From Coptis chinensis (lineage: Eukaryota > Streptophyta > Magnoliopsida > Ranunculales > Ranunculaceae), in the NCBI GenBank assembly GCA_015680905.1, contig CM027379.1, positions 98,693,001 to 98,757,000 of the forward strand: a stretch of 64,000 nucleotides of DNA, in the 5' to 3' direction. The position numbers and the translations under genes were made by a program. Positions 2,789 to 28,964 of the stretch are shown here, piece after piece. Numbering within the stretch: position 1 is the first letter of the stretch; each line of letters opens with the position of its first letter. The notes under the pieces were generated by a model. It was given only the letters and a program-made list of their open reading frames with translations, was not told where the DNA came from and searched no databases.

Positions 2789-3163
2789 GGCATCAATCCA
2801 TTTACTATAATTAACATCCTTAATGGCTTGTTAATAAGAAACCGGGTTTTAATTGTCCATTCTTCAGATTCAACTTGGTAAAGCATGTACTCATTGGAAA
2901 TAGCGGATCTATTTTCTCTTTGAGACCTTCTTAATGCTGGTTCCTCTGGTGCTTCATCCATGTGTTAGTTGGCGATAATATCATTATGGAGTTGTTGATC
3001 ATTTATTGGGTTTTCCTCATTGTGAAAAGGTTCAACAACGGGAGGGTTTCCAACATCTTTCGGAATAGAGGGAAAAATAATAGGTGCCCCTTATTTCCTA
3101 AATGATCACATCTTGAGTTTTATTACTCCCACTAATTTCGCCATTCTCAAAGAATTTGGCATT
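2789..3163 (-). pseudogene. Copia-A integrase-RT linker, including the left half of an internal duplication
   Basis: This is degenerate sequence between the integrase and reverse transcriptase of Copia-A. From 3031 to the Athila insertion it matches 28734 onward, so it is the first part of a roughly 232-bp tandem duplication that Athila later split. No frame is open. Confidence 0.7.
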
Positions 3164-3168
3164 ATTGG
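3164..3168. repeat. Athila target-site duplication, left copy (ATTGG)
   Basis: ATTGG lies directly before the left LTR and again at 28613-28617 directly after the right LTR. Joining the flanks over one copy restores the sequence found uninterrupted in the second Copia-A duplicate (GCATTATTGGTTTCAAC). Confidence 0.95.
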
Positions 3169-3234
3169 TGATAAAACAAAATTTACACACGTTTATTGGT
3201 TTCAGTTACTTATTTTCTTAAGTCCGAGGTCCAC

Positions 3235-3288
3235 AGTCCAAAGTCCAAAGTCCAAATACCCAAGTCCAAAGTCCAAAGTCCAAAGTCC
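3235..3288. repeat. AGTCCAA heptamer tandem array in the Athila LTR
   Basis: About seven imperfect copies of AGTCCAA. The matching array in the other LTR is at about 18369-18415 and has fewer perfect units. Confidence 0.85.
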
Positions 3289-4539
3289 GTATAGTTGTAC
3301 GTTTTAGTCAAGTTACCTTACTCACGTGGGATTGGTAAGATAGGTCGAGTAAAGGATCGTCCAAACCTTAGGGCTCGGATAGGTTCACAACTGGAATTAC
3401 AACTTTTGGTGAGTAGGATTTTTAGATTTTTTAATTGGTTTAATAAATTTTACGGTAATGCAATTAATGTAAATTACTACGGTGATTTTATGTAGGTAAA
3501 CAAAGGTGGAAAAATAGGGAGAGAGTTAATCATGCTCATGCAAGAATCATTTTTCAACAATTTTTATTACCAAATCACTACATCTCTAGTTCGTCTCGCT
3601 TTAGAGACGGCGCCGAAGTATTGATTCCTAGTGCATGCCCATATCTCTAGGTCGATTTCACTTCACAGCATAAGGAGTTTCAATAATACCTCATCTCTCG
3701 TATATTATTTCAGCTCCTCGCTCGATTTCACATCACCGGACAAATTGGAGAGTCAGTTCGACACTGAGAGAGTCGCGACGGGACATTTTGGTCGCTAGAC
3801 TGCCTCCCTGGAGCATCGCAGATCAACTTTGTACGATCCTCGATCATTTTGGGACCGGATGTTAATTCTATGCCTAATTCCTAAGTAGTGATTCTAGAAT
3901 ATTAACGAAGTCAATCCGATTTTCACACGAAGCAAAGATAACCCTCCCTCCGGGGGGATTAGCTCATGGTCATAGAAGGAATAATAAAACTTGTCATACA
4001 TTAAGTAAATAAATGCGTGACGAAATTAAACTAGAAAAGAAATGACTGTATTAAGGGTAAAATAACTTACGATTTTTAAGCCGTTCTTTGAATTGAAATG
4101 GCAAAATGTAAGTCTTGAATAAGAAAATCTAACTAGGCGTAGCTAAAAGCATTAATATAGAAGGGGTAATAATGAAGGCACCCCTCATATATATAGGGCC
4201 GATACAGGGAGTGATCCGTGAATGTTTTAGATTTTGGTTTTATGCTAATTGAATGGTTCAAACAAAACTTTGTTTTAACCGTTTTAATTTTTGTCCTTTT
4301 GTTATTTAAGGTTTTGTTTTTAGCTTATGTCAATTCAAACCACCGGTTTGAATGGAATGCGATGTCTTCTCTCTTGCCGTGGTATCAAATTGAAACCATC
4401 CTTTGCCACCGCCTATGTTTTCGACTCATCATGCCTTCGGGCCCTGGGAGAGTGGATCCACCTAGTGTGTCCAGTTGGTCGCTACCGATTTGGCATTTTT
4501 ACGACTTTTGTCCTTCATACTGAAGTTCGCCGCCGTCGC

Positions 4540-5100
4540 TATGACAGCTTCACTAGCCAACGCCGGCATCTAGATTTATCCGATTTGAGCTTCGGAAATT
4601 TGTTTGCTTCTTTATATGTGGACCCGCTCTGCCTTTGGTTTTATTATTTTGGAAACTTCGCTCTAGTCGCTTTTGTTGGGCTTCCACGGTGGTTGAGTGG
4701 GAAACTCCAAATATTCCCGTATTCTGTGCTTGGCAGCTTCACTAACCAACGCCGGCATCTAGATTTATCCGATTTGAGCTTCTAAGTTTGTCGCTTTTTA
4801 TATGTGGACCCGCCTCGACCGGTTTTGTTCTTTTGGAAACTTCGCTCTAGTCGTCTTTTTGTTGGGCTTCACGGTGGGTTGAGTGGAAAACTTCAAATAT
4901 TCCCAGATTCTCAGACTTGGCAGCTTCACTAGCCAACGTCGGCATCTAGATTTATCCGATTTGAGCTTCTAAAGTTTGTTTGCTTTATATATGGACCCAC
5001 CTCAGACCGGTTTTGTTCTTTTGAAAACTTCTCTAGTCGGGCTTTTGGGCTTCACGGGAGTTGAGTGGGAAACTTCAAATATTCCCGTATTCCTCAGCAT
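4540..5100. repeat. About 188-bp tandem subrepeats inside the Athila LTR
   Basis: The motif CATCTAGATTTATCCGATTT recurs at about 4566, 4755 and 4941, within longer units that also share the GGGCTTCACGG and GAGTGGGAAACT blocks. In the right LTR it recurs near 27120, 27287, 27444 and 28308, so the two LTRs differ in unit number and spacing. Confidence 0.85.
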
Positions 5101-5249
5101 TTCCGATGCATGTTTTATTACTATATTTATTTTAATTGCGAATCCTCGCAAAAGTACGAAAAATATAATTATTACATGATTATTAAACACATAATCAACC
5201 AAAATGCTATGTCTCTGGGGTTTAATATTACGGTTTTGGGTGCTTATCA

Positions 5250-18304: not shown

Positions 18305-19129
18305 TGATAAAACAAAATTTACACACGTTTATTGGTTTCAGTTACTTATTTTCTTAAGTCCGAGGTCCACAGTCCAAAGTCCAAAGTCCAAAGACCCAAG
18401 TCCAAAGTCCAACGTCCGTATAGTCGTACGTTTTAGTCAAGTTACCTTACTCACATGGGATTGGTAGGATAGGTCGAGTAAGGGATCGTCCAAACTTTAG
18501 GGCTCGGATAGGTTCACAACTGGAATTACAACTTTTGGTGAGTAGGATTTTTAGGTTTTTTAATTGGTTTAATAAATTTTACGGTAATGCAATTAATGTA
18601 AATTACTACGGTGATTTTTATGTAGGCAAACAAAGGTGGAGAAACAGGGAGAGAGTTAATCATGCTCATGCAAGAATTATTTTTCAACAGTTTTATTACC
18701 AAATCACTACATCTCTAGTTAAGCCTCGTTTAGGAGACGACGCCGAAGTATTGATCCCTAGTGCATGCCCACATCTCTAGGTCGCATTTCACTAGCATAA
18801 GGAGTTTCAATAATACCTCATCTCTGGTATATTATTTCAGCTCCTGGCTCGATTTCACATCACCGACGATTGGAGAGTCGTCGACACTGCAGAGTCGCCG
18901 ACATTTTTTTAGCGACTATCTGGAGCATCGCAATGATCCAACTTTGTACAGTCTCAGTCATTTTGGGACCGGATGTTAATTCTATGCCTAATTCCTAAGT
19001 AGTGATTCTAGAATATTAACGAGTCAATCCGGATTTTCACACGAGCAGCATAACCCTCCCCCTGAGGGGGGGGGGATTAGCTCATGGTCATAGAAGAAAT
19101 AATAAAACTTGCTGTATACATTAAGTAAA
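18305..19129 (-). repeat. Athila 5' LTR, part 1 (U5-side half)
   Basis: This matches 3169-4009 of the other LTR over its whole length, starting TGATAAAAC and ending AAGTAAA, where the Helitron begins. The rest of the LTR resumes at 26602. Confidence 0.94.
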
Positions 19130-19156
19130 CTAGCTTCATGCAAGTGCTCATGCACG
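19130..19156 (-). other. Helitron 3' terminus: hairpin plus CTAG
   Basis: On the minus strand the last 27 nt contain a stem CGTGCA / TGCATG (one G-T pair) around an 8-nt loop at 19137-19156. AAG and the terminal CTAG follow. This matches the Helitron termination structure, a short hairpin a few bases before CTRR. Confidence 0.9.
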
Positions 19157-21053
19157 TTGTATTAAACAGTCAGAAATTCTAACAACAAACAAAATAGTAA
19201 GATACAAAGGGAAGTGAAAACAACCATACATCCTAGTAATTTGCTAAGAAAAAAAAATCCAAGTAAAACATTTATTTATATGTATGGTATTCCTTATTAC
19301 ATTGACTTCATTCATATCCATTTGAAAATTAAATGCAACTCCTAAACAATTGTATGGTTCAAAAAAAAAAACCAAAGAGCAGCGTTTTGGCCAAGTAATT
19401 GAACATTGTCCAAAATCCACACTTAATGACCGATATTTCCTACATTCTCCAAAATAAGAAAAAAAAAAAAAGTTATCAGTCTATGCATATAGGCACTCAA
19501 AAAGCTCTGGTTTTAAGCAATGGAACTTCTTGACTTCCTTTATTCTTGGAGAAAATTCCTCCTAATAATAAAGTGATCAATAGTTTATTTTTTTCATTAT
19601 TCAGTATAGGATGTCTCTCTAGCACTTCTTCACTATATTCTGTACTAATAACTTGAGCCAGCGAGGAGAGCTAGCAAATTTTACCTATCGTTTTTTCTGA
19701 AATTCTTTTCCTTCAGACAAAGATTCTAACAAACAAAATAAGATACAAAGAATGGGAAAGAAAGAACGGGTGCATCGTCAAACACAATATGTTATATTGA
19801 CATGATTGTCCAAATATCATTACACTCATCACTTCTATATCAAAATTCCTTTCAAAAATACAATCACCAAAAATCAGATAAATGACACATGAACGTATTA
19901 ATAATACAGACGTGAAAATACGAACTGATCATTGACAACTGACGTTATAGAACACATTCACATATACAAACAATACAAAAAAAAGCCGAACATGCTGAGA
20001 TACTGAATAGATAATGACCGAGTGCGAGCTGCCCATTTCCTGCAGAGTTCAGTTAGTAACACTGATCGTTAGTGAATGGAGCAATGACAGTAAATAATTA
20101 ATAAGAAAAAGAAGAGGAAGAAAAATAGTTCCCGCACAGTTCAGTTAGTAGCACTTATTGTATTGATTGAGGTAGAGGGCAACATCTTAAAAGATGCACA
20201 TCTCACAGAAAAAGGTTCGATCATAGCATGCATTGGATATTGATTGCCATGAAGTTGTAATTTCAAAAGAATATATACCACGCTGAAAGTATTTCTCAAA
20301 TATCACCTAGCTGCACATAGGTGTTAAATTCAATGAGATAATAAAATTGGCATAAAAAAAAAAGTAGACAGTTATTAATAAGAGAAATGGTAGTTTAAGT
20401 CCAACAGTCAGACTTGCAAAGAGACATGTAACCGACCAACAATGAGCAAGAAAGATATACTTAAAGAGGATTTGGAGTTACTTACAGCAAAAAATATGAC
20501 AATGCCCGAGAAGCATCGATGCGATTGGGAGTTAAATGAACTGAACACGCCAGTGTAAATCAGATTTCTTGTGAAAGTCCCCATGTAACCTTGTTGATAT
20601 CCTATTTTAACTAACACATTGGTAGTGTGTCTTTAATACACCTCTTGAGAGGGCCACAATGTAAGAAAACGGGAACGCCTGCAAAACTACCAAATAAAAT
20701 AATAAATTGTCACAAGTCGGTATATGTTCGTCATTTTGTAAGCAACAAAACATGAAAAATAGTCAGGCTTTAACTAACACGAACTTCATGTTGAAGGCAA
20801 CAATATCATACTTGACCATATCTGTAGTACCTTATTGTTAAGACTTTCTAATATTCCTCGTTCTGCAAGGTCAAGACAAAGGATGGTATGGGGGAGAGTA
20901 TAACCTTCTTAAATGGGGACTGTGTCACTGATTCTATCACCATAACCCAGTACAATAGTTGAAAAATAAAAGAAAAATATTTACCATAGTTCCCAAACGT
21001 AACGATAGGATCGGAGGTCATATAAGGTTGTGTTAAATCCTAAAAACACCAAC
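19157..21053. other. Helitron interior near the 3' end, no recognised gene
   Basis: AT-rich sequence. A minus-strand stretch at about 20640-20690 is bracketed by AG and GT and reads GVPVFLHCGPLKR. A 69-codon minus frame lies at 20408-20617. Neither is recognisable. They may be further captured exons, or chance. Confidence 0.4.
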
Positions 21054-21359
21054 CTGTTGTAAAACCACTGGCATAGAGAGAAAGCACAGTCTGAAATTGC
21101 ATTGCAACATATATGGCAGGGACGTTGAATGTTTCAAACATGAGCTGTGTCATTTTCTCCCTGTTGGCTTTGGGATTGAGAGGTGTTTTAGTGAGAAGAA
21201 CAGGGTGTCCACACGAAGCTCATTGTAAAAGGTATGATGCCATATCTTATCCATATCATCCCAGTTGCTAACAATCCCATAGTCAATTGGGTATTTTAAC
21301 GTAAGGACACCTCTTTTAAACTGGGCTTCATCTCCCACATGTGCATCTTTCTGCCCCAT
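21054..21359 (-). pseudogene. Captured actin exon fragment
   Basis: On the minus strand the frame starts [20 protein letters not shown] and continues with [20 protein letters not shown], the hallmark actin segment from about residue 47. A deletion of about 10-11 bp after NELRV shifts the frame. In the new frame the sequence continues [20 protein letters not shown] and ends YASGFTTG at 21054, followed by GT. Plant actin genes have an intron at this codon (about 150), so the 3' boundary is a real exon end. The codons for residues 21-46 are missing. This is a dead copy of part of actin exon 2 carried by the Helitron, not a host actin gene. Confidence 0.93.
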
Positions 21360-21609
21360 TGCAAAGAGCAGAGGAGAGGACCATGAGCATGAGAGTCATC
21401 ACACCATAAATACAGTTAAGTCGGGTTAGTCGAACATAAACACCGAACTACCGAAACATTGATATGATCATGAACGAAAACAAAATAAACATATGATCCG
21501 TTATCTAAAAGCTCTGTAATGAAACTTACTTTGTGCCATTCTTCCGAAAGCTCTCTGCTACTCGGAAGAAAATGCAAGGTTAAACCGCCTGGATGTGATG
21601 GATCAATTC

Positions 21610-22146
21610 ATTCTTATCCAATAAAAGTGTATTTATTTCCTTAAGAGTTGCTAAAAAGATAAATTTTCCGCATCCACTTTCTCCAATCAGAGCGACAGTC
21701 TAGATAGTACTAAAGTTTGTCAGTCTTAAAAATGAATATATATAGGAGAAGCAAGTTGTCCAGTTGACTACTGTACATGTATGAATTTGAAAAGTCCATT
21801 TCGATTTTAAAGCATATATATTTACATGTGTGATCTAACTCCAATCTTAGCTGCTTTGATTTTCTTCTTAGATGTCACCCTTACTTTCAACATATGTTAT
21901 TAAGAAGCTTTAGATGAGAATCCTTAATTATACTAGACTTCAAGACATTACCTTGCCGAATTCAACAGTGAAACAAAGGTCTTGAAGAATCTGAACATCT
22001 GGTCTTGTTGGGTACGTGAAGCTAGCAAGCTGAAATTCAATCTCACCCTGCACAATTTCTAAGATCATTCCATAGTTGTCAATTGGATCTATTTCTGATT
22101 TCGTATCAAGAATCGCAAAATGATATAGTACAATTGCGCTCTTCAT
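21610..22146 (-). pseudogene. Captured ABCB-type ABC transporter exons (nucleotide-binding domain)
   Basis: Two minus-strand exons are visible. The first (21952 to about 22146) reads FAILDTKSEIDPIDNYG, then GEIEFQLASFTYPTRPDVQI, and ends VEFGK before GTAATG. This is the start of an ABCB (multidrug-resistance/P-glycoprotein) nucleotide-binding domain. The second (about 21610-21699) follows a CTAG acceptor and reads TVALIGESGCGKFIFLATL, the Walker A region. The usual GKS/T after the P-loop glycine is GKF, so ATP binding would be lost. An intron is kept between them. The membrane domains, signature motif and Walker B are absent. Confidence 0.93.
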
Positions 22147-23744
22147 TATTCTTTACTTGGGACTGCATCATTATGACTACTTATTCCCATCTCTTCTTCA
22201 TGTAAGGTTACACATGCTTAAATCCCATCACCAATCTTTGTATCCATAACCACAATAAAATTCTCATGAAGCAGACTAAGGACTTACCCATATGGGATTT
22301 TCCCGCTCAAAAAATCCACTTCATAGTAAGGGCACCTACACCAACCACTAAATGATGAGACTAATGGCTCTGCAGCACAGTATGCACCAAGCTGTTTTCT
22401 AAAACAATTAGGAAAAAAAAGCTCTAAGATCATGTTGTGCTTTCTTTATATATTCAGCTTCCATCTTCTTGATAGACTCCTTCAGACATTGCAACTCTGC
22501 AGTCACAATGAGATAACCAAAAGAATGATGAGACAATGGCAGACTCATCCTATTACGCAAGTTCACAAGTAAACTTGCCATAACTAATTTTATTGTCAGT
22601 CTAGGTCTTGATCACTTAGCCAGGTTAGTGATACATCGCAGTAAGAGTGCCATCATTGCCTCCATACACATTCGTTGGGCTTATCATGTATAACTCACTG
22701 GCAGATTCAATTTTAAGAGCAGCTAAGCCAACACGTCGAATACAAAACTTTTACTGACAACTTCTTGATTGCACTTCCAGTGTGAGGTACCCATAGAGAG
22801 AGCATTTCTCTAGGAGGGAAAAGCGACTCTAATCGAATTCAACATCGGAGGCACAATGGTTTTATCATACACATGACAATTGGCTGCTCACATATTGGTT
22901 ATAGCATTAAGAATTGCTACATTAGCAACCTTATGTGATATAGATGATTACACGCTGCGATCGCCATTCCACCATATAATCAAATGTGGTAACTTGAACA
23001 ACAAATAGCTCCATGCCAATTCAATATAGTGGTTCAATTCATTGACTTTTGGACTGATAAGATTTAAGCATGCCCGCACTCATTAACATGTATACTGAGT
23101 ATCTTATTGTTCCACACACTCATTAACATGTATACTAAGTATCTCATTGTTCCACACTCGACAAAAAATTTAGTCTTGCTATAATTAAAGAGCAATATAA
23201 AGAACGGTGCGGAAGAAAAACCTTCAAATAAAGAATTACAACCAACAATATTTAAAAGTAATAAAATCTTAGTAAATTGGAAATAAAACAATGAAAGAAA
23301 CAGGGTATCATGAACAAATAAAATTTGGGAAAAAAAATTAAAACATATATGAAATATTACCTGTTGATCTGAAGGAGTTAATCTGAAAATTGAAGAAGCA
23401 TAAACCTTAGGTGTGGCGTCATGAATCTAAAACTTAATCAAGTGGAACCCATAAAAGTGCTACAGTAATTACGCGACACAATTCCGAAGCTTTTGTAAAA
23501 CCAACTGAATGTTATTACAGAAATCTATACCAAAATTAGTTCGTAGTTTCTGCACTAAGGGCTCGGATAAGAATGTTCCCTTTTGTATAATCTTTGAAAC
23601 TAAAAAAGTCATGCTAAATAAAGCTTGGATGTCAAAAGCAATTATATACCAACAAAATAAAAAGTTCAAAGCGACTACAATCTATTGAAGGCAACTATGC
23701 AAATAAAAAGACTATAGACAGGAAAAAAAGAAGTGAGACATACC
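22147..23744. other. Helitron interior between captured ABCB and APP1 exons
   Basis: No identified gene. Minus-strand coding-like patches include a charged helical stretch ending at 22496 after a CAG acceptor (LQCLKESIKKMEAEYIKKAQ) and a stretch around 22640-22740 (ASELYMISPTNVYGGNDGTL). These may be exons of further captured genes that I cannot name. Confidence 0.35.
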
Positions 23745-25138
23745 AATTTTTTTCTGTCGTGAAACACTTGGGTGAAACATTCTTTCTGCCGTGAAGTTGG
23801 TTCTCCGAAATGTACTGTCCTTGTTACGTCAGTTGTACCATCAACATATTGAGCGCCACTGTCTAATAAAAACAGTTTCTTATCATCGACAACAGCTCTC
23901 TGGCTCTGGTTTGTACTGTATGATGGCTCCATTTGCGCTGGAACCTGAAAAGGTATCAACCATGGTCAACAAAATTTGAAGCTAACTAAACTGCGACTCC
24001 AGAAATTTCACTGTACTGGTAAACCAGATTACACTGTTGTCAACAAATTATTTCATTCTAAATAGTGTGCATTAAGAGTGGTAATATTAGTGACCAAATC
24101 ATGGATTGACTATTTAGACCAGAATCGGGCAGATCTATGTCCCTATAGCTCAGCATTCACACTATTCCTAGTCCATATTTTCCATCCGTTCTTTTAACTC
24201 TTTCCTCCCCTGTGATATCAGGAGTCTAAAAACTTCAAAGCCCAGGTCTCAAGTCTATAGACTACAGCTGCAGCTATGCAAAAACATCTAAAATTGATGG
24301 CTTATTTGCACTAAGATTTCTTGCACTATATGGATGAAAAAGAAGCCACTGGCTTTGTAAAAAATAGGATAAACAATAGGACGCATTAACATTGTGACAC
24401 TGCAAATATATTGGTCGTATGAAATTATCATAGAGAGGCTCCATATTTCAACTTAAAACCATGAAACACTTGCGTACCACTTATAGTGTTAAAGCTTGTA
24501 TCCAGAAAACCATATTGTTTTGCACGGAATTCAGGAAGTTTGTCGGCAACTTCTACTTCTGTTAATACCACATTTTCATGGATTTCCTCTTCCAGCCAAG
24601 CCCAAAATTGTGAGAGAGCAGCTGCATCCCTACAAATGAAATATAATACCTTATACTCATGCTGTTAAGATTCTCCATATTTTTTGTACACGTTCAAATC
24701 ATGGTTAAAAACATCCTAAATATTAGTCAGATACATCTCTCTTTTGTCAATACGGATACCTACAGATACATAAGAGAGACATGCTACACCTTTTCCGAGA
24801 TAAGAATCTCTTTTAATAGGAGCGAGCTGTGTGCATGAACCATGGTTCAAACCAGGATCATATATAACACATTCACGTAAAAGGTATTATGTACCTCAAG
24901 TGTGAACTCTGCATCCCTTCCAATTCAGCTTTGTTTTTCACTGCCTTGGCCATAGATGATGGGGAAATTACGTACACCTGCAGGGGATGTGCAATCTGAC
25001 CATTTGGCCCTTCAAGTGCTCCACTTTTGTTCTCACTTAAAAGTTTTGCAAGATATTTAACACAATCAGATCTTTAGGTGTTGACAATTGCGGCATTCAC
25101 AGATGAAGTATCCAACCAGAGCTGTACACCTTTGGCTG
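23745..25138 (-). pseudogene. Captured aminopeptidase P (Xaa-Pro aminopeptidase, APP1-like) exons
   Basis: Three minus-strand exons follow the order of plant cytosolic APP1. Exon 24895-25138 reads QLWLDTSSVNAAIV, then an in-frame TAA, then KAELEGMQSSHLR. Exon 24478-24629 reads DAAALSQFWAWLEEE and EVADKLPEFRAKQYGFLDTS. Exon about 23745-23944 reads LFLLDSGAQYVDGTTDVTRT and FGEPTSRQKECFTQV, which contains the two metal-binding Asp residues of the M24 fold. A frameshift lies near the start of the last exon (KPEPESC and DDKKLF are in different frames). The remaining metal ligands (His, Glu, Glu) are absent. In a living gene the enzyme removes N-terminal residues before proline. This copy cannot. 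Confidence 0.94.
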
Positions 25139-25510
25139 CTAACCTAAAAACAATAAACCTTTAGAACAGATTTGCAATGAATCGAATCCTTGTGTATGCT
25201 TCCATATAGATAATCATGCTTAACTGAGCAAATGTATAATTTCGATAAGTAGGAGCATTCGTAGCTTATTAATCACTTAACTAATACATTTTAAAGTAAG
25301 CATATGCTTCAACCAAGGAAATTGTTCACATTGCAGACATTTCAATAAATCAAGATTACTGAATCCCTAATTTTTATTATTGACAAAAGAAGAAACTATT
25401 AAACTTAACGAAAGGCGATAATATGTCAAGCTCTTCATATACAAAAATAAAGTAAAAGCAAATTTATCGAACCAAAAACCCAAATCAAGTAATAATGATC
25501 AATTACTCAC

Positions 25511-25701
25511 CAGGCTTCGCAATAACCTTCTCCTGCGGCTTTAGCATAATCTAATAAGAAGACAACACCATTATGGGACTGATATCAAGATTTATAGACA
25601 TGACGAACTAAGTATCAAAGATTACAGTGGAAAGAGTACCTGAACTATCTGAGCTTCACCTCCCAAAATCTGGAAAGGGATAACTTGTTTGCTTGTGGAC
25701 T
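25511..25701 (-). pseudogene. Captured AIM24-like exons (two)
   Basis: Minus-strand exon 25640-25701 follows a TTGCAG acceptor and reads STSKQVIPFQILGGEAQIVQ before GTACTC. Exon 25511-25550 follows TTATTAG and reads IMLKPQEKVIAKP plus one base before GTGAGT. The two join in phase into the conserved opening of the AIM24/DUF124 family, proteins linked to mitochondria by family annotation and of unknown biochemical role. Intron borders are intact but the rest of the gene is missing. It lies nearest the Helitron 5' end, in the same orientation as the other captured pieces. Identification is by motif recall. Confidence 0.85.
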
Positions 25702-25901
25702 CTGCAATAAGTTTCTCACATAAGTTATACCTTAAACTAATTAGGTTCCTTACATACGGAGTATAGACTATATGAACTCGTCTATATTCATTGATGGGCC
25801 TCCAAAACATAATCATTAGTATTTTTGTTTTTTCTTCTTCTTCGTCTTCTTTTTGGGAGAATAGCTTTGTCTTCTAGAGAATCACAGATAATTTTATTTA
25901 C

Positions 25902-25961
25902 CAGTGAACTTGCTTGAGAAACTGCCATAGCGGCCAAACAGAGTGCAAAGAAAACCTGCAT
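25902..25961 (-). pseudogene. Exon-like fragment with hydrophobic start, unidentified
   Basis: A minus-strand ATG at 25961 opens 20 codons (MQVFFALCLAAMAVSQASSL) that end at GTAAATAA, a plausible donor. The stretch resembles a signal peptide or membrane anchor. It could be the first exon of the captured AIM24-like gene or a piece of a fifth gene. Confidence 0.4.
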
Positions 25962-26581
25962 AATGCCGGAAAGAATAAACCTATAGCCGTTGAAGGCTCA
26001 AATTCGATTCTTGAGAAGGAAAAACATAGGATCTACAGTTGATTGTGGCAACTTTCTCAATATCTTTGTTAAGATGGTGAAAATGAAGGGGCACAATAAT
26101 TTTTTTTTTTGTTTGTTCTTAAGAATTGGGACTGTTTTGAAGAATTGGAATTTTCTTTGGTTGTCCAGATGCAGCAAGAAGAGCATGGGGTAATCGGCAT
26201 GTTATTATGTTTGGGAAGAGAAACAATTATGGGGCTTATTAAAGTCGGTATTAAAGTGATTGGATTTTTTATTGTTCACCAAAATAGGGGAGACGGAAGG
26301 GGGAAGGAGCTGTATTTATGGTAATTAAAGTCTATTTATGACTAATAAATATAGGCGTACAATTCATATAGTCATATAGTGCGTGCATTTGGTTTTCAAC
26401 CTGAATTTACACGAAACTCCTTTGTGAGTGTGTTATAACTTAAGGGTATAAATGGAAATAAAAGTCGAAATGACGGAATAGTCCTTTTTAAAAGCATTGA
26501 ATATTTTATTTTAATATCTAATTAAGGGTATTTAGTGGTAGATAAAAAGTTGGTCTAATTTAAAAGGTCAGGTTAATTATA

Positions 26582-26601
26582 GTGTACTTTACTAATAGAG
26601 A
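26582..26601 (-). other. Helitron 5' terminus (TC end)
   Basis: Read on the minus strand the element starts TCTCTATTAGTAAAGTACAC, a common plant Helitron 5' start, directly next to host T at 26602. Confidence 0.9.
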
Positions 26602-26786
26602 TAAATGCAGGACATAAATTAAACTAGAAAAGAAATGACTGTTATTAAGGGTAAAATAACTTACGATTATTTAAAATTTCTTTGAATTGGAAATGGCAAA
26701 ATGTAAATCTTGAAGAAGAAAAATCTAACTAAGCGTAGCTAAAGCATTAATATCTTTGAAGGGGTAATAATGAAGGCGACCCCCTC

Positions 26787-26797
26787 ATATATATATA
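26787..26797 (-). promoter_or_regulatory. Athila LTR TATA box
   Basis: A run of alternating AT (ATATATATATA) in the 5' LTR, also present in the 3' LTR at 4186-4194. Transcription would run toward lower coordinates, entering the Helitron about 186 bp downstream in the sense direction of the captured exons. Confidence 0.5.
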
Positions 26798-27474
26798 GGC
26801 GATCTGAGGAGTGATCCGTGAATGTTTTAGATTTTGGTTTTATGCTAATTGAATGGTTCAAACAAAACTTTGTTTTAACCTGTTTTAATTTTTGTCCTTT
26901 TTTGATTTAAGGTTTTGTTTTTAGCTTATGTCAATTCAAACCACCCGGTTTGAATGGTGCGTGCTTCTCTCTCTTATCAAATTGAAACCATCCTTTGCCA
27001 CTGGTATCAAATTGAAACCATCCACCTTTGTGTCCAAATGCCGAGCCGTTTGGTGTTTTTACGATTTTTGTCCTCATCTTGAGGGCCCATCGTGGATCCT
27101 TCACTATAGCCAACGTCGGCATCTAGATTTATCCGATTTGAGCCGATTTGGCGTTTTTATGTGGACTTTTTTGTTCTTTTGGAAACTTCGCTCTAGTTGC
27201 TTTGTTGGGCTTCACGGTGGTTGAGTGGGAAACTCCAAATATTCCCATTCACGTGTATTTGGCAAAATTCACTAACCAACGTCGGCATCTAGATTTATCC
27301 GATTTGAGCTTGAGTTTCTTTGCTTCTTTATATGTGGACCAGCTCTGCCTTTTTTTGTTCTTTTGGAAACTTCGCTTTGTTGGGCTTCATGGTTGAGAAA
27401 CTTCAAATATTCCCAGATTCTCAGTTTTGGCAACTTCACTTTTGCATCTAGATTTATCCGATTTGAGCTTCGTG

Positions 27475-28150
27475 GACCATTTCACCAAATCACGGCGTTT
27501 TTGAAAAACGCCAAACCGATATTGCCAAAGGCGTTCGGTTTTGGTTTTAAAACCAATATAAAACCCGGTTTTTCAAAAACGTTTAAAACCGGTTTTAAAA
27601 AGCGCGTTTAAAAACCGTTTTAAAACGTTTTAAAACCCGTTTAAAACCCAAAATTTTAAAACCGAGATTTTGAAAATCTCCTGTTTAAAACTTTTTTTTT
27701 TTTAACGCTTTTTGGAGTTTACCTTTTTGAAGAGTGGGCGTTAGATTGACTTATTGAGACCGTTCTATTTTGCTTTGGACTATTAATAATTAATTGAAAA
27801 TTTTAAAGTTATTAACTTTTTGTTGTACTTAATTATGCCATTATGGTTGGTAATTAGTAGTATCTTATTTTGAGTAGTGTTTTTCACTGAATCTAAAACT
27901 TATAGTATTTGGATGAGTAATGATAATTTGATATTTTCATGTATTTGAATTTTCTTTCATTTGTATTATTATTATTTTTATTTTATGTGTCTATTTTTTC
28001 CACTTTTATAGAAAATCAAACTCTTTATCTATTATATTATTTATCATCGGTTTTACCGCTTTTTTATATGTGGACCGTTTTAAACCCGCTTTTTGCCCCC
28101 ACGGGTTTTTTTCTTTTTTTTCCCGAAAACTCCGCTTAAAACTAACTAAG
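27475..28150. repeat. Insert in the Athila 5' LTR rich in AAAACCGGTTTT palindromes
   Basis: This is absent from the 3' LTR. Positions 27500-27670 are dense in AAAACCGGTTTT-like self-complementary words. The centre is an AT-rich tract. Around 28064 a degenerate copy of the LTR phrase TATATGTGGACC reappears. No terminal repeats or target duplication are obvious. It may be a local amplification of LTR sequence, a small element, or an assembly problem. Confidence 0.55.
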
Positions 28151-28612
28151 TTTTTTCAAGGGCTTTGTGATGTGGACCAGCTCTTACCGTTTTGTTCTTT
28201 TGAAACTTCGCTCTAGTCGTTTGTTGGTTGAGGTGGTTGAGTGGGAAACTTCAAATATTCCAGATTCACGTACTTGGCGGCTTCACTAGCCAACGCGTCG
28301 GCATCTAGATTTATCCGATTTGAGCTTCGAAAGTTTGCTGCTTCTTTATATGTTGACCCGCTCTGCACTGGTTTTATTCTTTTGGAAACTTCGACTCTAG
28401 TCAGGCTTTGTTGGGCTTCACGGGAGTTGAGTGGGAAACTTCAAATATTCCCGTATTCCTGTACTTCGATGCATGTTTTATCACTATATTTATTTTAATT
28501 GCGGAATCCTGCAAAAGTACGAAAATATAATTATTACATGATTATTAAACACATAATCGACCAAAATGCTATGTCTCTCGGGGTTTAATATTACAGTTTT
28601 GGGTGCTTATCA

Positions 28613-28617
28613 ATTGG
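28613..28617. repeat. Athila target-site duplication, right copy (ATTGG)
   Basis: Identical to 3164-3168. It directly abuts the LTR end GCTTATCA. Confidence 0.95.
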
Positions 28618-28964
28618 TTTCAACAATTCTCATACTATGGTTAGGACAGTATAACCTAAATCCTTTGGACTTTTCTGGGTAACCTATAAAGTAACCACTA
28701 ATCGTTTTAAAATCTAATTTCTTTTCATGTGGATTCAACAACGGGATGGTTTCCAACATCTTTCGGAATAGAGGGAAAAATAATATGTACTCTTATTTCC
28801 TGAATGATCACATCTTGAGTTTTATTACTCCCACTAATTTTGCCATTCTCAAATAATTTTGCATTATTGGTTTCAACAATTCTCATACTATGGTTAGGAC
28901 AGTAGAACCTAAATCCTTTGGACTTTTCTGGGTAACCTATAAAGTAACCACTAATCGTTTTAAA
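28618..28964. repeat. Tandem duplication in Copia-A: end of copy 1 plus complete copy 2
   Basis: Copy 1 is 3031-3168 joined to 28618-28711. Copy 2 is 28734-28964 and is uninterrupted. A 22-bp unrelated spacer (28712-28733) separates them. Copy 2 contains ATTGG once, inside GCATTATTGGTTTC, and so shows the pre-insertion sequence of the Athila target. Confidence 0.9.

Follow-up and report, generated by a model that had tools for sequence, protein, structure and literature searches.

Captured gene pieces in a Helitron of Coptis chinensis, with a replacement inside one captured exon

How do pieces of unrelated host genes come to lie side by side in one mobile element? The question is raised by a locus of Coptis chinensis at which one long terminal repeat (LTR) of a retrotransposon is interrupted by 7,472 bp holding such pieces. 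We analysed it within a window, by which we mean the whole 64,000-nucleotide stretch studied (assembly GCA_015680905.1, contig CM027379.1, positions 98,693,001 to 98,757,000); positions below are those of the window unless another contig is named. We conclude with high confidence that the segment at 19130-26601, on the minus strand with its 5' end at 26601 and its 3' end at 19130, is a Helitron with captured gene pieces in which an internal replacement has taken place. The replacement can be followed in sister copies elsewhere in the genome, and the way in which it came about is the main subject of what follows.

The boundaries of the element are given by the retrotransposon itself. In a self-comparison of the window, 3169-4009 corresponds to 18305-19129 and 4009-4969 to 26601-27471, so that 19130-26601 breaks up the right LTR at a point equivalent to 4009/4010 of its sister, with one A that may be assigned to either side of the junction. 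A preliminary description of this DNA had fixed both ends by the sister LTR in the same way, and the self-comparison and the printed junctions agree with it. Read on the minus strand, the insert takes the form A|TCTCTATTAGTAAAG...GAAGCTAG|T without a target duplication. Its 5' terminus, TCTCTATTAGTAAAGTACAC (26582-26601), opens with TCTCTATTAG at 26601, the TC of Helitrons, and its 3' terminus is CTAG at 19130, in agreement with CTRR; at 19141-19159, 7 nt ahead of this CTAG, there is a possible 3' hairpin, judged by folding and by sister sequences. Together, A|T, TC and CTRR would be expected by chance at a fixed junction with a frequency of about 3e-4, two strands and two registers being allowed. 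Allowing as many as 3 mismatches, no further copy of either end was found within the window. Six-frame Pfam searches of the element returned no RepHel or other transposase, and this copy is therefore non-autonomous.

Gene fragments are also carried by Pack-MULEs, CACTA elements and other terminal-inverted-repeat transposons (PMC1947982; here and below, citations refer to excerpts of the papers), and an element of that kind is one alternative. It is very improbable here: the junctions lack the target duplication, a search for inverted repeats of 40 bp or longer in 10000-36000 found none and comparison of the ends by eye agreed, and the TC and CTAG ends are common to sister copies.

Those sister copies were sought across the assembly (935.6 Mb in 116 contigs, the window being on contig C3). 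The terminal 100 bp of the 5' end gave 526 candidate places, 40 of which were scored, with 42 matches listed; 30 loci were fetched, the window's own included, which left 29 sisters for comparison. Every one of the 29 starts at this very position and is preceded by A, and 28 read TC (L015 reads CC); their 20-bp flanks look mutually unrelated. With the terminal 60 bp of the 3' end, 19 matches were obtained including the element itself, and 14 of the 18 others were read: all 14 are followed directly by T, and CTRR is kept in 12, the exceptions being L044 and L052. As L050 and L051 have a common flank, these represent 13 independent 3' ends. The hairpin stem is clear by eye in L039, L043 and L048-L051 and poorer in others. 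The clean A|T junctions of the preliminary description recur among the sisters, and the terminal sequences led, as it had suggested, to sister Helitrons; one of these, L040, carries a glycoside hydrolase fragment that is described below. In two sisters, L027 and L035, a second, partial 5' end follows right after the first, which might reflect a duplication of 5' ends.

From 5' to 3', the cargo consists of a first piece of an ABC transporter B family (ABCB) gene, pieces of AIM24, aminopeptidase P (APP) and a putative BAHD acyltransferase, a second ABCB piece, actin exon 2, actin exon 3 and a 1.6-kb tail; the assignments cover the cargo region apart from 26005-26287, 23094-23759 and 21360-21659. 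All pieces lie in the sense of the Helitron, with introns kept and coding frames broken. In frame-wide Pfam scans (E up to 10 and E up to 1) the three sense frames gave hits to actin, BAHD and M24, and the three antisense frames gave none; single exons performed less well, with AIM24 and BAHD going unnamed and ABC_tran reaching only 0.063, and joined-exon or frame-wide scans were stronger. Because introns are kept, these fragments were captured at the DNA level, as had been proposed together with their common orientation and broken frames. The AIM24, APP, ABCB and actin fragments reported in the preliminary description are real by Pfam, PDB and genome-gene matches; its count of at least four genes stands, and becomes five if BAHD is included. 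Also beyond its four fragments are an actin exon 3 and an additional ABCB piece.

The AIM24 fragment (25365-25890, minus strand, delimited by the gene at C2:80.84 Mb) comprises two exons, 25640-25701 and 25511-25550, preceded by part of one intron and followed by part of the next. Its Pfam score of 0.0027 is below the cut-off and no PDB relative was found, and its 191-bp query is 97% identical to a genomic AIM24 gene. The genome holds 5 AIM24 matches, the element's own included; in the gene at C2:80.84 Mb both exons are open, and the Kimura two-parameter (K2P) distance to the captured piece is 0.028. The fetched stretch of this gene begins with PFQPYVYQ, which we take to be the end of AIM24 exon 1. 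The APP fragment (23760-25366, minus strand) is 95% identical to a gene at C5:86.40 Mb and contains exons 24895-25138, 24478-24629 and 23760-23944, with limits read by eye, the last of them cut by the end of the capture. It matches PDB 3ctz at 4.4e-33 and Pfam M24 at 8.5e-16. Among the 17 APP matches in the genome, the C5 gene has readable exons inside and downstream of the captured part and lies at a K2P distance of 0.045. The captured copy has acquired a stop in its first exon where the gene has Y and a 5-bp deletion in its third. Positions 23745-23759, which had been counted as part of APP, were dropped, as homology to the C5 gene ends at 23760.

These best-matching AIM24 and APP genes, on different contigs, are likely donors by sequence comparison. 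The expectation that parent genes would be found at unlinked loci is thereby borne out for AIM24 on C2 and for APP on C5, the exons of both being readable as far as these genes were fetched, and the closest ABCB copy, also on C2, is a third locus. Splice borders, described earlier as kept, are indeed so in all five of the APP borders compared with the gene and, by eye, as GT/AG in AIM24 and ABCB; the acceptor ahead of actin exon 3 is the part of that claim that does not hold.

A BAHD acyltransferase would be the fifth captured gene, on weaker evidence: the assignment of 22134-23093 (minus strand, extent taken from L063) comes from motifs presumed to be of BAHD type, similarity to vinorine synthase (0.0029) and Pfam hits. 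The BAHD query has 24 genome matches, own included. Of these, L063 was fetched: 2.3 kb ahead of it stands another 5' end of Helitron type, and the interval holds neither APP nor AIM24. A 40-bp tandem duplication (23077-23156, 95% identical) is found where the fragment begins on its 5' side, and the L063 match starts inside it.

Actin exon 2 (21054-21359, minus strand) is placed by PDB and genome matches, reaching 6.5e-53 with PDB 6iug (pollen F-actin) and passing the Pfam cut-off, and is followed by a fragment of exon 3 at 20840-20953, also on the minus strand and with an approximate end. The actin query has 33 genome matches, own included, at least three of which are in Helitron-type copies (L040, L056 and L061); matches of about 80% may be working genes.

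It is in the ABCB pieces that the internal replacement is seen. ABCB, identified by a match to PDB 8zpx (ABC transporter B family member 1) at 2.3e-20, has 10 matches in the genome, the closest with exons continuing past the captured part being that at C2:62.81 Mb (L054; 91-94% by stretch). Piece 1 (25901-26004, minus strand), defined by comparison with sisters and this ABCB copy, holds an intron end and the first part of an exon; piece 2 (21660-22119, minus strand) continues with the remainder of that exon (to 21952) and an intron, and from 21699 enters the following exon. ABCB had earlier been given as 21610-22146; of these positions, 22120-22146 fall within the inserted block, and for 21610-21659 blastn gave no match to the C2 copy. 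A protein database search with an ABCB piece returned no match under a length window that left out full-length relatives. The idea that the two pieces are exons around a natural intron was rejected, as L040 and L054 show one continuous exon. Between the pieces lies a block of 3,781 bp (22120-25900, minus strand, borders uncertain by 1-2 bases) with the AIM24, APP and BAHD fragments.

Sister copies reveal what the block replaced. L040, at C4:37.0 Mb, is a Helitron that has a 5' end of its own. It carries ABCB, actin and the tail but not AIM24, APP or BAHD; where the block would be, the ABCB exon runs on for 41 bp, just as in the uninterrupted exon of the C2 ABCB copy. Of these 41 bp, L056 (C5:34.9 Mb) retains the final part; it lacks both the block and ABCB piece 1. 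Since L040, L054 and L056 are all without the block, 41 bp have been exchanged for 3,781 bp. The junction of ABCB with AIM24 occurs again in L067 (C3:105.68 Mb; 453 bp collinear, 97%) and in L065 (C4:96.63 Mb), where 18 bp of ABCB are left and the AIM24/APP joint is present too. By coordinates, APP adjoins AIM24 at C3:105.68 and C4:96.89 Mb and, with an interruption, at C4:96.63 Mb. As the ABCB/AIM24 junction is found at two other places, the exchange is older than the insertion in the window. The recurrence of this junction and of the ABCB-actin-tail order in L040, L065 and L067, together with that of the Helitron ends, makes it extremely improbable that an assembly error joined unrelated pieces, even though the junctions are known from the assembly alone. 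Between C4:96.63 and 96.89 Mb, AIM24, APP and BAHD matches form two sets of opposite orientation, separated by about 250 kb, a pattern that resembles an inverted duplication containing a sister copy with later insertions.

How, then, was the block acquired? End bypass, a proposed model of Helitron capture in which cargo is gained by read-through past the 3' end (PMC6544945), would have the pieces added in their present order, and it could still fit the older ABCB and actin captures. For the block it is refuted by L040, in which ABCB, actin and tail are the same but the block is absent, and as an account of the cargo as a whole we regard it as improbable, the block being inside an ABCB exon. 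The filler-DNA model, according to the same source, allows internal cargo with a small loss, which end bypass does not (PMC6544945). Here the cargo sits inside a captured exon, a small loss is seen at the site, and relatives without the cargo exist in L040, L054 and L056; we consider that the exchange was probably break repair inside the element from foreign templates and not read-through past its 3' end.

A different source for the block would be recombination with another Helitron in which AIM24, APP and BAHD were already joined. The many BAHD matches, with L063 behind another Helitron-type 5' end, would suit this, as would APP pieces with equal bounds at three places with no AIM24 match nearby. 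Against it, the block borders show no Helitron ends, and the site has lost 41 bp; among the 5 AIM24 matches, three (the element's own, L065 and L067) carry the ABCB/AIM24 junction and one is the gene, and no ABCB-free carrier is present among the AIM24 matches fetched, which were all but C4:96890079. Recombination of this kind is less likely than not. More doubtful still is a specific form of the break-repair reading, in which one break in the ABCB exon would have been repaired once from three successive templates (AIM24 on C2, APP on C5 and BAHD from within another Helitron), turning 41 bp into 3.8 kb.

The earlier state is kept in L040, with ABCB and actin fragments and the 3' tail joined and the later block absent; in the line of the window copy, 41 bp inside the ABCB exon have been swapped for 3.8 kb of AIM24, APP and BAHD fragments, and the element sits in the LTR between A and T. 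At the actin/tail border up to 2.3 kb, including a GH35 (beta-galactosidase family) fragment, may have been lost. This stretch lies by the tail and next to actin in L040 (L040:5921-8226; Pfam 1.9e-7), is represented by about 1.7 kb in L039, and has no counterpart in the window element. The 1.6-kb tail (19130-20740, minus strand) is common to L039 (97%) and L040 (94%), with K2P distances of 0.023 between the window element and L039, 0.040 between it and L040, and 0.044 between L039 and L040; given these distances, loss in the window element is the simpler reading. At the other end, the 5' module of about 314 bp (26288-26601, minus strand) may derive from a high-copy Helitron family, to which it is about 88-96% identical, and part of 26005-26287, between this module and ABCB, is common to L040. 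Because the module matches the high-copy family while the 5' end of L039 is 78% like it and that of L040 is different, an exchange of 5' ends between Helitrons is suggested. Movement would have relied on a RepHel enzyme made elsewhere.

Several observations weigh against parts of this account. The 3' hairpin of this copy does not exceed shuffled sequences (z -1.18), and in L040 and L041 only one of its two arms is present. Both BAHD matches to PF02458, in two frames (6e-4 and 0.0092), are under the cut-off, and the joined pieces score 0.035, weaker than the frame-wide scan; actin exon 3 is likewise under it (0.15 and 0.0044) and has no clean AG ahead of it. The actin and BAHD pieces are multi-copy, some copies lying in other Helitrons, which leaves several candidate donors for each, and the C2 ABCB copy may not be the donor, as it has an in-frame stop. 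Microhomology, which the filler model predicts, is slight: the AIM24/APP joint, the only one read between two known donors, has 2 bp (GG), and at the left end of AIM24, which falls in a TA repeat, microhomology is unclear. Finally, the unequal K2P distances of AIM24 and APP to their genes lean mildly against one simultaneous event.

The host of the Helitron is read as an LTR retrotransposon on the minus strand, with the uninterrupted LTR, as shown by self-comparison and the junctions, at 3169-5249, the LTR that holds the Helitron at 18305-28612 and a target duplication, ATTGG, at 3164-3168 and 28613-28617. The whole-LTR K2P distance of 0.22 is inflated by misalignment across repeats and by further insertion, and two cleaner stretches were therefore taken, giving 0.045 and 0.087. 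About 700 bp of the right LTR (27472-28170), 0.9 kb from the Helitron, have no counterpart in the left LTR and may represent a second insertion or an expansion. The retrotransposon itself lies inside a tandemly duplicated stretch with 253-bp spacing (3031-3168 and 28613-28964), the reverse strand of which resembles, by eye, the integrase end of a Copia element; this would give three nested elements. Two further pairs of direct repeats, 55575-56106/62152-62684 (91%) and 57903-58331/59268-59696 (95%), are possibly LTRs of other elements.

Elements of this kind are well known. The helA and helB Helitrons of maize share the TC and CTRR ends, insertion between A and T, fragments from several loci and a proposed stepwise capture (PMC3288121, PMC2575219), differing from the present element in plant and genes and in that a block-free relative and two likely donors are here available in the same assembly. 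Maize helAs are reported to hold 0-12 gene fragments, with a mean of 3, and to capture them stepwise (PMC3288121), so five genes in one Helitron are unsurprising. Rice and Arabidopsis are likewise described as having few captures spread by transposition into many copies (PMC2575219), for which the counts here are 33 actin and 24 BAHD matches, the element's own and possible genes included; the combinations reported for rice are of two genes, fewer than in the window element (PMC2575219). Insect Hel1 Helitrons show internal stepwise acquisition that has been read as filler DNA, from source loci contributing from tens of bases to 100 (PMC6544945), as compared with 3.8 kb from at least three sources in one replacement in C. 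chinensis. A search of the open-access literature found no report of the AIM24-APP-BAHD-ABCB-actin set.

The value of this locus lies in a capture step that can be read. The route by which Helitrons capture genes is described as unsettled (PMC6544945), and the presence in one assembly of a block-free relative, an uninterrupted ABCB copy and two likely donors makes this step legible nearly to the base pair. For that step, the evidence favours replacement inside the element over end bypass. Should the single-repair version be true, multi-gene Helitrons could arise from a single template-switching repair and not by the gain of one gene per transposition.

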